From NCBI RefSeq assembly GCF_029889745.1, contig NZ_CP123639.1:1214501-1278500 (forward strand): a stretch of 64,000 bases of DNA, read 5' to 3'. The first letter of the stretch is position 1. The number at the start of each line of letters is the position of its first letter. This document shows, piece by piece, positions 22,112-46,349 of this stretch. Source of the DNA: Ligilactobacillus faecis (GTDB lineage Bacteria > Bacillota > Bacilli > Lactobacillales > Lactobacillaceae). The notes below the pieces were generated by a model that was not told the origin of the DNA, made no database searches, and was given only the letters and a program-made list of their open reading frames with translations. The position numbers and the translations under genes are program-made.

Positions 22112-22133
22112 AAGCTTAGTGCACACTAAGCTT
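22112..22133. repeat. Terminator hairpin, left copy flanking IS1182-type element B1
   Basis: A 22-bp perfect palindrome with arms AAGCTTAGTG/CACTAAGCTT. It is repeated exactly at 23651-23672, on the other side of the IS. Without the insertion it would be the bidirectional terminator of the two convergent L,D-transpeptidase-like genes, with an A-tract before it and a T-tract after it. Here the A-tract is kept and the plus-strand T-tract is lost. Confidence 0.92.
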
Positions 22134-23650
22134 CAGAATGTAGACTAAGTCATCAGAGTATGTGCTCTGGTGACTTTTTTTGTATAATTAAAGAAAACGA
22201 TTACGGAGGTATTTGTCATGCTTCGCAAGAGTGATCCCAATCTCAAACGCCGTGAATATGCTCGTACTTCTCTAGATGATTTGGTCCCAAAAGATCATTT
22301 ACTCCGTAAAATTGATCAAATTATTGATTTCTCTTTTATTTATGATCTTGTCGAAGATTCCTATTGTAAAAATAACGGTCGTCCTAGTCTTGACCCTGTA
22401 CTACTCATAAAGATTCCTTTGATTCAAAATTTATTTGGTATCCGTTCTATGCGTCAAACGATCAAAGAAATTCAAGTTAATGTCGCTTATCGATGGTTTC
22501 TAGGACTAGGTTTAAATGATCCTGTCCCTCATTTCTCTACTTACGGTAAAAACTATAAAAGAAGATTTGCTGAAAGCCATGTAATAGAAGCTATTTTTGC
22601 TCATATTTTGAAACTCTGCTTAGAAAATGATCTTATCGACACAACTGATATTTTTATTGATGGAACTCATTTGAAAGTTGCTGCTAACAGCCGTAAATAT
22701 ACTACTGAAGTTATTGAAACTAAGTCAAAATTTATGAGTGAAGATCTCGAAAAAGAAATAAATGTAGATAGAGCTAAACATCAAAAGAAACCCTTAAAAG
22801 AAGAAAAACCTAAAAAAAAACTAGACAAGTAAAAATATCTAAAACTGATCCTGATAGTGGATGGTTTCATAAGGGTGAACACAAACAGGTTTTTGCCTAT
22901 AACGTTCAAGCTGCCTGTGATAAAAATGGGTGGCTCTTAGCTTATGTGGTCGGTGCGGGAAATATCCATGATACGCAACTTTTTCCTGAAATATTTGAAA
23001 AAGTACGGAAGTACGACCCACAATATATTATCGCTGATTCTGGCTATAAAACACCCACGATCGCACACTTTTTACTATCTCAAGGCATAATTCCCATTCT
23101 TCCTTATAAACGCCCAAGGGGCAAAGTTGGTACGCTTAGACCCAAAGATTTTGTTTATGATGAATATTATGATTGTTATTTATGTCCTGGCGATCAAATC
23201 TTAATGTACTCCACAACTAATCGAAGTGGTTATCGTGAATATAAAAGTGATCCTACAATCTGTGAAAAATGTCCTTTACTGCACAAATGTACACAAAGTA
23301 AAAATCATCAAAGAGTTATCGCTCGTCATGTTTGGCAAGATAGTATGGAAAAATGTGAGGATATCAGGCATCAAACTGGCTCAAAATTAAAGTATGAAGC
23401 GCGAAAGGAGACGATCGAAAGAAATTTTGGTTCGGCAAAAGAATATCACAACTTGAGATACGCCCGAGAAGTAGGAATTGATAAAATTCTAGCTAAAGTC
23501 GGGTTGATATTTGCGTGCCTAAATCTAAAAAAACTGGTAAAAATACTGGGGAAAAACCCTGTTATATTCGTATATTTCAAAGTATATAGTTATAAAAATA
23601 CATAAAAAAACAAACTCTATCCGATTTGAATAGAGTTTGTCTACGTTCTG
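22134..23650 (+). mobile_element. IS1182-family element B, copy 1 (1517 bp), inserted in a terminator
   Basis: The ends are CAGAATGTAGAC... and ...GTCTACGTTCTG (inverted repeat). The element is flanked on both sides by the complete 22-bp hairpin AAGCTTAGTG/CACTAAGCTT. Inside the left end is AGTCATCAGAG/CTCTGGTGACT followed by seven T (22148-22181). Inside the right end is ACAAACTCTAT/ATAGAGTTTGT with an adjacent A-run (23610-23640). These would stop readthrough entering from either side. A TATAAT at 22183-22188 lies just inside the left hairpin, ahead of the transposase. The element limit could slide by 4 bp because both targets end in AAGC/GCTT. Confidence 0.92.
22218..23605 (+). CDS. IS1182-family transposase in two overlapping frames (element B, copy 1)
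   Basis: The first frame (22218-22832, 204 aa) holds the DUF772-like N-terminal domain and the first catalytic region DIFIDGTHLKVAAN. The second frame continues from the A9 run near 22813 through HKGEHKQVFAYNVQA, IIADSGYKTPT (second Asp), the zinc-finger-like CEKCPLLHKC, and ERNFGSAKEYHNLRYA (final Glu) to 23605. Joining them needs a -1 shift at CCTAAAAAAAAAC. The other copy (44806-46322) has the same A9 and the same split, which favours programmed frameshifting or transcriptional slippage over random decay. Confidence 0.85.
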
Positions 23651-23672
23651 AAGCTTAGTGCACACTAAGCTT
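23651..23672. repeat. Terminator hairpin, right copy flanking IS1182-type element B1
   Basis: Exact second copy of the 22-bp palindrome at 22112-22133, followed by a T-tract. For the minus-strand L,D-transpeptidase gene, its hairpin is now followed by IS sequence instead of U residues. Confidence 0.92.
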
Positions 23673-41341: not shown

Positions 41342-41997
41342 AAAACGATATTTTCTGCTTCTAGATATTTATTACGTTCTTTCAAACGTAGGATCTCAAG
41401 CTTGAGACGCTCAGTTTCAGAAAGAGTCTTATAATCACGATCTTTAACTGTTTTACCACGATTATCGTATAATGCCTTTTCGCCATCTACTTCAAACTTT
41501 TTGACCCAATTATAGACTTGGGAATAAGAAACATTATATTTATCGATCGCTTTGTGATAATTCTTATTATTAGCAAGTGTATACTGAACTATTTCGAGCC
41601 GTTCCTTAAAAGTAGTTTTACGTCCATGTTTCATTCTATTACGACCTCCAATGGTAGCTTTAAAGCCTTTTCCATTAGTATACAAGTTGATCCATTTACG
41701 TAAAACCGAAACACTCGAAATATTGTATTTATCACAAATTTTCTTTGGTGAACGTCCATTTTCTAAATATTCTAGAACCGCAGTTGTTTTTAATTCAACT
41801 GAATATTCTTTCCAGGTTCTAGACTCTTTTAAGCCATCTAAACCGCCAGCTTTGTATTTTCTGATCCAATTATCAAATGTATTTTTAGAAATGGTATATT
41901 TCCGGCAGATAAAGTACTTACTATATTGTCCACTAAGATACTCGGAGACTGCCTGGTATCTTTCTTCAAGTGTATGTTTAGTAGTTCTTCTAGACAT
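41308..41997 (-). CDS. IS3-family transposase OrfA
   Basis: 229-aa DNA-binding protein from the ATG at 41997 (MSRRTTKHTLEERYQAV). It has repeated helix-turn-helix units (YTISKNTFDNWIRKYKAGGLDGL, YNISSVSVLRKWINLY, YNVSYSQVYNWVKKF) and a C-terminal leucine-zipper-like coiled coil (ETERLKLEILRLKERNKYLEAENIVLKKL). An A7 slip site (41335-41341 on the complementary strand) near its end moves ribosomes to orfB. Confidence 0.93.
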   Translation of the reverse strand: MSRRTTKHTLEERYQAVSEYLSGQYSKYFICRKYTISKNTFDNWIRKYKAGGLDGLKESRTWKEYSVELKTTAVLEYLENGRSPKKICDKYNISSVSVLRKWINLYTNGKGFKATIGGRNRMKHGRKTTFKERLEIVQYTLANNKNYHKAIDKYNVSYSQVYNWVKKFEVDGEKALYDNRGKTVKDRDYKTLSETERLKLEILRLKERNKYLEAENIVLKKLDELERRR

Positions 41998-42437
41998 AAA
42001 AAATCCCCCTAGAGTGATCACAGAATCTTTATTATTTCCGTGTCCACTCTAGGGGAATCATATCACATCCTGTTTAGTTATCTCTTTTTACGCGCTGCTG
42101 AGCAAGGAAAAGAGCTGAGCATGTTATTAAAAACATTCCCTGAACTAGCTTTAGGAGTCCTTATGGCAGGGATCAATGTTCTTTTGGCAGCAGGACTGTG
42201 GCGGATCGCACCGAGTGAACGCCCACTATATTTAAGTTTAGCTTTGATCCAACAGGGGGTGAGCTTGAATTTCTTGGGAATTTTGTTGATCTACTTCTAT
42301 CAGCGTCAAGCAAATTATCGTTTTTGGCAACGCCCAACTAAAGAGCAGCTGAGCTTATCCATAAGTTTTGGAGTGCTTTTACTACTGACGCTACTTGTTT
42401 TACTTTTGCGCTTACGCCTATTGTTAGCATAAGATCG

Positions 42438-43782: not shown

Positions 43783-43963
43783 GGTTACTGATCAAGTTTG
43801 CATACTTTAAATTTGAAGTTACGACAATTTTCTCAAAAGGATACAAAGTAAACAAAAGTTGACTAGAAGTCTGCCAGACTTAGTCACAGGGATATCTGTG
43901 TCAATTGATAGCGCTTTATTGTAAAATGATAAGTGTTAGAAAGCAGAAAGTAGGATGTTATTT

Positions 43964-44773
43964 ATGGATATTAAGCTGATAGCGATCGATATCGATGGCA
44001 CATTAGTTGATTCGCAAGGAAAATTAACAAAAAAAGTGATCCAAACGATCAGACAAGCAAAGGAAAAAGGGATCAAAGTCGTTTTATGCACGGGACGCCC
44101 ATTGCCAGGGGTCAAACCGTTACTACAACAACTAGGTCTAGACGATCAAGATGACCAATATGTTGTTTGCTTTGGTGGGGCAGTCGTTGAAACGACAAGT
44201 GGCAAGACGCTTTTCCAAAAAGGGATCACTTACGATGATTTTGTCGATCTAGAAGCGATCGCACGTAAATTGCAACTGCATTTTCATGCGATCAGTACCG
44301 ATCGGATCTATACCTGTAATAAAGACCTTGGTTACTACACGCTTTATGAAGCCAATCTCGTTTCGATGGGGATCTCATACCGTACTCCAGATGAATTGCG
44401 TGACGTGCCCTTAGTCAAAGCAATGTTTGTGGAAGATGCTGCGATTTTAGACCCTGCGATCGCAAAACGTGAATATTTTGCTCCGCTAAGCGAGCGTTTA
44501 GATCTGATGAAAACAGCTAGTTTTTATTATGAAGCCTATGCAAAAGGTGTCAATAAAGGCAGTGCACTTGTAAAACTGTGTGAGATCTTAAAGATCACAC
44601 GCGAAAATGTCATGGCGATCGGGGATGAAGAAAACGATCTGTCGATGCTTGAATTTGCCAAATTAGGAGTGGCGATGGAAAATGGTATCCCAGCCGTCAA
44701 AGAGATCGCCGATCAGATCACTGCTGACAATGATCACGATGGCGTTGCATTGGCGATCGAAACAGTTCTTTAG
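43964..44773 (+). CDS. Cof-type HAD-superfamily phosphatase
   Basis: Cytosolic sugar-phosphate phosphatase type (HAD IIB), 269 aa from 43964. Motif I IAIDIDGTLVDSQ (nucleophile Asp), motif II VLCTGRPLPG, the Lys in the NKGSALVKL region, and motif IV VMAIGDEENDLSMLEFAKLGVAMENG. A start at 43955 would add three residues; the later ATG has AGGA at better spacing. The natural terminator after it is disrupted by the second IS1182-type element B insertion. Confidence 0.9.
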   Translation: MDIKLIAIDIDGTLVDSQGKLTKKVIQTIRQAKEKGIKVVLCTGRPLPGVKPLLQQLGLDDQDDQYVVCFGGAVVETTSGKTLFQKGITYDDFVDLEAIARKLQLHFHAISTDRIYTCNKDLGYYTLYEANLVSMGISYRTPDELRDVPLVKAMFVEDAAILDPAIAKREYFAPLSERLDLMKTASFYYEAYAKGVNKGSALVKLCEILKITRENVMAIGDEENDLSMLEFAKLGVAMENGIPAVKEIADQITADNDHDGVALAIETVL

Positions 44774-44782
44774 CGATAATTT

Positions 44783-44805
44783 AAGCGTCCTAGTAAAGGG
44801 CGCTT
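44783..44805. repeat. Terminator hairpin of the Cof gene, left copy flanking IS element B2
   Basis: A 23-bp hairpin AAGCGTCCT...AGGGCGCTT with loop AGTAA, duplicated exactly at 46323-46345. The left copy has lost its T-tract because the IS begins directly after GCTT. Confidence 0.92.
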
Positions 44806-46322
44806 CAGAACGTAGACAAACTCTATTCAAATCGGATAGAGTTTATTTTTTTATGTATTTTTATAACTATATACTTTGAAATATACGAATATAACAGGGT
44901 TTTTCCCCAGTATTTTTACCAATTTTTTTAGATTTAGGCACGCAAATATCAACCCAACTTTAGCTAGAATTTTATCAATTCCTACTTCTCGGGCGTATCT
45001 CAAGTTGTGATATTCTTTTGCCGAACCAAAATTTCTTTCGATCGTCTCCTTTCGCGCTTCATACTTTAATTTTGAGCCAGTTTGATGCCTGATATCCTCA
45101 CATTTTTCCATACTATCTTGCCAAACATGACGAGCGATAACTCTTTGATGATTTTTACTTTGTGTACATTTGTGCAGTAAAGGACATTTTTCACAGATTG
45201 TAGGATCACTTTTATATTCACGATAACCACTTCGATTAGTTGTGGAGTACATTAAGATTTGATCGCCAGGACATAAATAACAATCATAATATTCATCATA
45301 AACAAAATCTTTGGGTCTAAGCGTACCAACTTTGCCCCTTGGGCGTTTATAAGGAAGAATGGGAATTATGCCTTGAGATAGTAAAAAGTGTGCGATCGTG
45401 GGTGTTTTATAGCCAGAATCAGCGATAATATATTGTGGGTCGTACTTCCGTACTTTTTCAAATATTTCAGGAAAAAGTTGCGTATCATGGATATTTCCCG
45501 CACCGACCACATAAGCTAAGAGCCACCCATTTTTATCACAGGCAGCTTGAACGTTATAGGCAAAAACCTGTTTGTGTTCACCCTTATGAAACCATCCACT
45601 ATCAGGATCAGTTTTAGATATTTTTACTTGTCTAGTTTTTTTTTAGGTTTTTCTTCTTTTAAGGGTTTCTTTTGATGTTTAGCTCTATCTACATTTATTT
45701 CTTTTTCGAGATCTTCACTCATAAATTTTGACTTAGTTTCAATAACTTCAGTAGTATATTTACGGCTGTTAGCAGCAGCTTTCAAATGAGTTCCATCAAT
45801 AAAGATATCAGTTGTGTCGATAAGATCATTTTCTAAACAGAGTTTCAAAATATGAGCAAAAATAGCTTCTATTACATGGCTTTCAGCAAATCTTCTTTTA
45901 TAATTTTTACCGTAGGTAGAGAAATGAGGAACAGGATCATTTAAACCTAGTCCTAGAAACCATCGATAAGCGACATTAACTTGAATTTCTTTGATCGTTT
46001 GACGCATAGAACGAATACCAAATAGATTTTGGATCAAAGGAATCTTTATGAGTAGTACAGGGTCAAGACTAGGACGACCATTATTTTTACAATAGGAATC
46101 TTCGACAAGATCATAAATAAAAGAGAAATCAATAATTTGATCAATTTTACGGAGTAAATGATCTTTTGGGACCAAATCATCTAGAGAAGTACGAGCATAT
46201 TCACAGCGTTTGAGATTGGGATCACTTTTGTGAAGCATAATGAGCACCTCCGTAACCGTTTTCTTTAATTATACAAAAAAAGTCACCAGAGCACATACTC
46301 TGATGACTTAGTCTACATTCTG
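44806..46322 (-). mobile_element. IS1182-family element B, copy 2 (1517 bp), inserted in a terminator
   Basis: Same length and nearly identical sequence as 22134-23650, in opposite orientation. The ends are CAGAACGTAGAC... and ...GTCTACATTCTG. It is flanked on both sides by the complete 23-bp Cof terminator hairpin. Internal end hairpins with T/A tracts are conserved, at about 44815-44845 and 46279-46310. As with copy 1, the junctions read GCTT|CAGAA and TTCTG|AAGC. Confidence 0.92.
44851..46238 (-). CDS. IS1182-family transposase in two frames (element B, copy 2)
   Basis: Start at the ATG 46238 with GGAGG upstream. The first frame ends at 45624 and the second continues to 44851, joined by a -1 shift at the same A9 run as in copy 1. 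The proteins differ from copy 1 by very few residues near the start (e.g. MLHKSDPNLKRCEYAR and LKAAAN). Catalytic regions are as described for copy 1 and none are lost. Confidence 0.85.
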
Positions 46323-46349
46323 AAGCGTCCTAGTAAAGGGCGCTTTTTT
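46323..46349 (+). terminator. Terminator hairpin of the Cof gene, right copy with its T-tract
   Basis: Second exact copy of the 23-bp hairpin at 44783-44805, here still followed by T residues. In the uninterrupted chromosome this would terminate the Cof gene, 10 bp after its stop codon. Confidence 0.9.

Follow-up and report, generated by a model that had tools for sequence, protein, structure and literature searches.

The 64,000-nucleotide stretch of Ligilactobacillus faecis DNA analyzed here (the window; contig NZ_CP123639.1) carries two copies of one insertion sequence, each lying between direct repeats of a hairpin, and the two hairpins differ in sequence and in length. What does this element recognize in its target, and how does a hairpin come to stand on both sides of it? 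The second of the two, copy 2, occupies 44806..46322 on the minus strand (1517 bp). It is flanked by exact 23-bp repeats of AAGCGTCCTAGTAAAGGGCGCTT at 44783..44805 and 46323..46345, each of which pairs symmetrically as a hairpin with one mismatch in the stem. The target was the terminator-like hairpin of a putative Cof-type phosphatase gene (43955..44773, plus strand), 9 bp from its stop codon in mechanically called ORFs. Copy 1 of the same element (22134..23650, plus strand) differs from copy 2 at 22 of 1517 positions and lies between 22-bp copies of another hairpin at 22112..22133 and 23651..23672. Both hairpins sit right after a stop codon and, by sequence, have the appearance of terminators. 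A second insertion of the same element into a duplicated 23-bp terminator-like hairpin, as the preliminary description had it, is thus confirmed, except that the end given there, 46349, lies four T's too far; the right repeat stops at 46345.

In the transposase orientation the ends of copy 2 are CAGAATGTAGAC...GTCTACGTTCTG, with the gene on the minus strand, and these ends were used to set the borders of all copies in this genome. The terminal CAG...CTG is common to 17 copies in different targets. Flanking hairpin repeats of this kind are beyond chance: among 607,061 segments of the same lengths from the 64-kb window, 1644 (0.27%) pair as well as the worst of the genome's own duplications, a level reached by 17 of 17 of the latter. 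An Rfam search over the whole window gave no matches. An 88-bp sequence with an inverted repeat lies at 1-88 and 41978-42065 of the window, and the genome has 20 full copies of it; it may mark the end of a different insertion sequence. Its copy at the start of the window adjoins a terminator-like hairpin.

Copies and transposase in the L. faecis genome

Searching the whole genome gave 17 full copies, no two of them at the same hairpin. There is also one 44-bp fragment (L018, 1501-1544), lying outside any full copy, which corresponds to the transposase-proximal end with its inward hairpin. All 17 full copies have exact flanking repeats of 21-34 bp, and each repeat is one whole hairpin. In 15 of them an automatic gap-free stem search found the axis of the hairpin to coincide exactly with the centre of the repeat; in the remaining two (window copy L002, and L017) a stem mismatch defeats this search, and the pairing strings are symmetric. 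The hairpin lies within 10 bp of a stop codon at 14 of the 17 copies, with mechanical ORFs of at least 70 codons, and the copy at L004 is additionally crossed by a short ORF of 231 bp.

Both window targets end in AAGC/GCTT, and it had been suggested that the true border might be shifted by 4 bp, with duplications of only 14-15 bp. The other copies refute this shift. Their ends remain CAG...CTG and their repeats begin with AAAG, AGTC, GAAG, GGAC and others; overall AAGC opens the repeat in 5 of 17 copies, and AAA, AGT, AAGT, GAAG or GGAC in the rest. Since not all targets begin with AAGC while the element ends stay constant, AAGC/GCTT belongs to the target and is ruled out as the end of the element. 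Constant AAGC/GCTT ends together with targets that are not hairpins were looked for in the other copies and not found.

We looked for unoccupied versions of these sites. None was found for the window's own copies. For copy 2 the search extended to sister species, with the Cof gene matched in 15 of 26 genomes of the genus (L. faecis included). Three Cof loci were inspected (in genomes G003, G024 and G011); two have no evident terminator hairpin after the gene and so are of no use as empty sites, and in the third no gene end was found.

The transposase is encoded in two halves on the minus strand. ORF A (45624..46247) contains the DUF772 half (PF05598, E = 5.6e-23; NF033551, E = 3.5e-58) and ORF B (44851..45510) the DDE half (PF13751, E = 4.4e-22; NF033551, E = 8.5e-56); the coordinates of ORF B run from its first start codon, and its frame stays open further 5'. 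At the junction of the two frames is a run of nine A (45636..45644, minus strand; T9 on the plus strand), and both the run and the split are found in 17 of 17 copies. Programmed frameshifting or transcriptional slippage at this run is the likely reading. The material consulted on frameshift gene clusters discusses a DUF772 cluster annotated as IS1182 transposases (PMC3711429). The site is likely to be particular to this element; we rejected it as a trait of the clade, because eight or more consecutive A were present there in just 3 of the 135 relatives. Eight of the 17 copies are identical at 1518 bp and three others are identical at 1517 bp; since identical copies carry the split frame, elements with it have probably moved recently.

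Scored separately, the two halves give 197.7 and 189.8 bits against NF033551, each below the 270-bit cut-off set for the whole protein. The relative L023, whose best segment is 58.7% identical to ORF B, scores 458.8, above the cut-off. Both the DUF772 and the DDE_Tnp_1_6 domains that characterize the IS1182 family are present, and the transposase falls within the IS1182-family tree, its sister group being six transposases from streptococci and their phages. On its domains and its position in the tree, the element is assigned to the IS1182 family. The structure predicted for a related transposase of Streptococcus varani (mean pLDDT 82.6) has piggyBac and Tn5 as best Foldseek matches, with E values from 5e-5 to 3e-4 and low TM-scores (0.29-0.37). 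Mos1 and ISCth4 are also near it among solved structures, all DDE-type and again with low TM-scores. A search of solved structures by sequence gave a single chance match (E 0.16).

Each end of the element contains a terminator-like hairpin facing inward, at 46280..46309 on the minus strand in the transposase-proximal end and at 44818..44844 on the plus strand in the other. Of 106 distinct elements, 85 have such a hairpin within the outermost 130 bp on the left, 84 have one in the corresponding part on the right, and 72 have both; among internal segments the figure is 35 of 444. With these built-in hairpins and a doubled host hairpin whose T-tracts point outward, the transposase gene would be insulated from outside transcription, probably on both sides.

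Hairpin duplication among related elements

Loci of relatives were collected from genome searches, from named phage and plasmid records and from scans of genome and viral contigs; the genome scan retained the best 80 of at least 580. The queries were mostly the branch's own protein, and the sample is thus a sample of this branch. We examined 78 + 99 loci and placed both ends in 65 + 84; some of the 13 + 15 dropped loci lie at contig edges and in others the end motif was unrecognised. Once copies with identical flanks had been taken out, this left 152 distinct ones for which both ends could be placed, 17 from L. faecis and 135 from elsewhere. Of 293 testable ends, 273 directly adjoin a hairpin (no more than two mismatches, and a foot no further than 2 bases away), compared with 365 of 3786 positions chosen at random in these loci; with a stricter hairpin score the counts fall to 239 of 293 ends and 84 of 3786 positions. 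The remaining 20 ends have no hairpin at the first threshold.

Of the 152 copies, 103 retain an exact repeat of 12 bp or more. These repeats are 16-40 bp long (median 25) and comprise 103 different sequences. The hairpin axis coincides with the duplication centre in 98 of the 103, and mean pairing, 0.937 in register, drops to 0.31-0.49 if the pairing frame is shifted by 1-3 bases. Five repeats are off-centre by 0.5-2.5 bp (L111, L114, L162 and L179 among them), and one copy, L141, is an exception with an 11-bp repeat and no clear hairpin. The proposal, made from the two window copies, of a rule by which the duplication is as long as the hairpin targeted is therefore supported by 17 of 17 copies in the genome and by 103 distinct duplications, own and related. 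No exact repeat of at least 12 bp is found in the other 49 copies, many of which have different hairpins on each side, as judged by eye, or ends at contig edges. Recombination between copies or assembly can explain these, with recombination traced in the pair L147/L148 alone. The latter are inverted copies about 11 kb apart in one genome whose target hairpins are swapped, the arrangement that recombination between copies would be expected to give.

That the target is a terminator, as first proposed, is borne out in part. An A- or T-rich tract is present on at least one side of 95 of the 103 duplications, so the targets are mostly terminator-like; eight have no such tract on either side, and a strict terminator is not what is used. 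The base pair at the hairpin foot is A-T in 81 of 103, and some sequence preference therefore exists. In 94 of 103 the foot sits 0-3 A-T pairs below the first pair of another kind; the A-T foot pair and this position suggest where the junction sits. At least one further pair can be added just outside the repeat, through the A and T tracts, in 77 of 103, and the foot is therefore not simply the end of all possible pairing.

Comparison of occupied and empty sites is possible for two relatives. In element-free IncC plasmids, the match of the left flank with its repeat and the match of the right flank with its repeat share exactly 18 bp, which is the length of the repeat; this holds for 15 of 15 IncC records among the matches listed, with 949 and 900 records matching the two flanks. 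The empty site in phage Javan90 and the occupied one in phage Javan87 give an overlap of 26 bp, again the repeat length, and the two phages are identical across the 682 and 781 bases compared. Since the overlaps equal the repeat length, the empty site holds one hairpin and insertion makes the second.

A copy on a Cetobacterium plasmid (Fusobacteriota) has a hairpin duplication, as do five of five further plasmid copies tested, which the tree does not cover: two from Enterococcus faecium (one annotated ISEfa7) and one each from Aminobacter, Rhizobium and Providencia. In a tree of 74 transposases, thinned of near-copies from 102 rows, the 53 hairpin-duplicating ones form one clade (SH-aLRT 96); only copies with a clear duplication were counted on the duplicating side, and there are several long branches, so that the deepest order of the other rows is unsure. 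A phylum-wide search with the family model gave 21 multi-copy IS1182 groups, six of them with hairpin duplications (G568, G686, G893, G584, G886 and G750). None was seen by eye in the other 15, among which G730 gave no alignment. Duplication of the whole hairpin is the rule across a branch of IS1182.

A member of the family that behaves differently resides in the same genome. This second IS1182 element (G000:C1, e.g. L033 and L053-L058) is 1826-1827 bp long with a single frame, has the ends GGGGCTGGG and is present in at least seven copies, several of which lie between A-rich and T-rich flanks. A duplication longer than 1 bp was found in 0 of 7 copies. Across 28 copies of five such groups, a count which omits three of six fetched G069 copies, no 12-bp repeat was found; 22 have no repeat, five have 1 bp and one has 6 bp. 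The two flanks of the non-duplicating elements pair with each other at 5.36 of 10 positions, against 4.42 when shuffled, and none of 5000 shuffles reaches the observed value. The effect is modest and the flanks are A/T-rich, but such pairing fits the stumps of a removed hairpin, the outcome described for IS1272, and these elements likely replace the hairpin.

How a hairpin might be doubled

DDE enzymes join the 3' ends of the element to the target, and once the gaps are filled the duplication has the length that separated the two points of attack. Normally its length is fixed, set by the spacing of the two active sites. In the branch described here insertion takes place at one hairpin, which afterwards flanks the element in full on either side, and the duplication follows the hairpin over 16-40 bp. 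We think it probable that the transposase recognizes the shape of an extruded hairpin or cruciform, not its sequence, and attacks at the 5' feet. The palindrome would extrude as a cruciform, on either strand one 3' end of the element would attack at the hairpin's 5' foot, and gap repair would then copy each hairpin strand. At the four-way junction the 5' feet are adjacent, whatever their separation on linear DNA. This position is favoured because the distance between attacks equals the hairpin at any length, without significant helical phasing, and the feet are adjacent on the cruciform. Terminators are the commonest strong hairpins between genes, which would account for landing just after stop codons.

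An alternative is that the hairpin is recognized only during transcription, at a paused polymerase or in an R-loop, or in single-stranded DNA at a replication fork. Most targets are terminator-like (95 of 103 have a tract on at least one side), as transcription would have it; in the transposase orientation, however, the 3' side is T-rich in 73 of 103 and the 5' side A-rich in 77 of 103, with no evident orientation bias relative to the terminator. Eight targets lack both tracts, and both strands need a symmetric attack, so that we regard this route as unlikely.

Recognition of an inverted repeat on ordinary linear duplex DNA, by a transposase dimer with flexible spacing, would suit the two-fold symmetry of the targets and the frequent A-T foot pair (81 of 103). 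Against this, the 103 targets are 103 different sequences of 16-40 bp, and their lengths show no significant 10.5-bp phasing (resultant 0.128; 95% point of a smooth null, 0.175), which counts against two fixed sites on linear DNA. We judge this explanation to be quite improbable.

Selection alone, with insertion anywhere and survival in harmless terminators, is very doubtful: 14 of 17 hairpins in L. faecis do lie in such a harmless place, within 10 bp of the stop codon of a mechanical ORF, but selection cannot set a duplication to the exact length and axis of the hairpin (98 of 103), nor its variable length of 16-40 bp, and hairpins without A/T tracts are also used (8 of 103). That the hairpins are part of the element and travel with it, as the AAGC/GCTT shared by both window targets might hint, is effectively ruled out because each of the 17 copies has a hairpin of its own, even though eight of the elements are identical, and because the relatives' empty sites already contain a single hairpin.

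Recognition of an extruded hairpin, with attack at the 5' feet, can be carried further, to a reading whose merits we see as evenly balanced. Two kinds of IS1182 branch would act on the same extruded terminator cruciform at opposite feet, this clade at the 5' feet, with doubling of the hairpin, and IS1272-like elements at the 3' feet, with its deletion. Duplication length would then be an in vivo record of the base pairs extruded, and the duplication together with the inward terminators would make the element self-insulating.

Comparison with known systems

Targeting of hairpins within IS1182 is already known. The sections consulted of two papers (PMC4923244, PMC5678879) describe insertion of the staphylococcal IS1182-family elements IS1272 and TnSha1 into hairpins, often terminators, with no sequence consensus, and both cite Siguier et al. 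2015 for some IS1182 members targeting palindromes, as the copies in L. faecis and their relatives do. The family, the hairpin targets and the frequent use of terminators are common to these elements and ours. According to the same sections, IS1272 removes the stem-loop wholly or in part and duplicates nothing, whereas here two hairpins are kept at 17 of 17 copies. In the portions of Wan et al. 2017 consulted (PMC5678879), attack on a cruciform is drawn; pathway a is proposed for IS1272, and a hypothetical pathway b, for which those portions give no natural example, predicts duplication of the whole stem-loop. Such duplication is found in the L. faecis copies, in their relatives and in the before/after pairs.

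The variable, target-dependent length of the duplication suggests that it is DNA structure, and not sequence, that is targeted. The natural insertions, over 100 in number, thus make up a record of hairpins that may extrude in vivo, which are otherwise hard to study. Elements of this type may already be entered in ISfinder with long repeats. Clade-wide duplication of whole hairpins, its separation on a tree and before/after pairs were not found in our literature search, most subscription papers falling outside its scope. The sole description of whole-hairpin duplication met there is the model in the consulted part of PMC5678879; its absence elsewhere in print does not follow from this.

ISEfa7 of Enterococcus faecium (IS1182 family; named from the record annotation), with a transposase about 48% identical to the S. 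varani query relative, is similar in that L334, the sole annotated copy tested, has the ends CAG...CTG and lies between duplicates of a 20-bp hairpin; it differs in having a single reading frame according to the annotation. In the accounts consulted, ISPpu9 and other elements found in REP palindromes likewise insert into palindromes. Elements of the ISPpu9 type have a different (IS110-type) transposase chemistry and a repeated target sequence. Doubling a terminator, not breaking it, suggests a route to high copy number at little cost to the host. The second IS1182 element of L. faecis shares with the first its family, its genome and flanks of which one is often A-rich and the other T-rich, but not the duplication; as duplicating and non-duplicating relatives in one genome, the two form a matched pair in which the determinant of the outcome can be sought.
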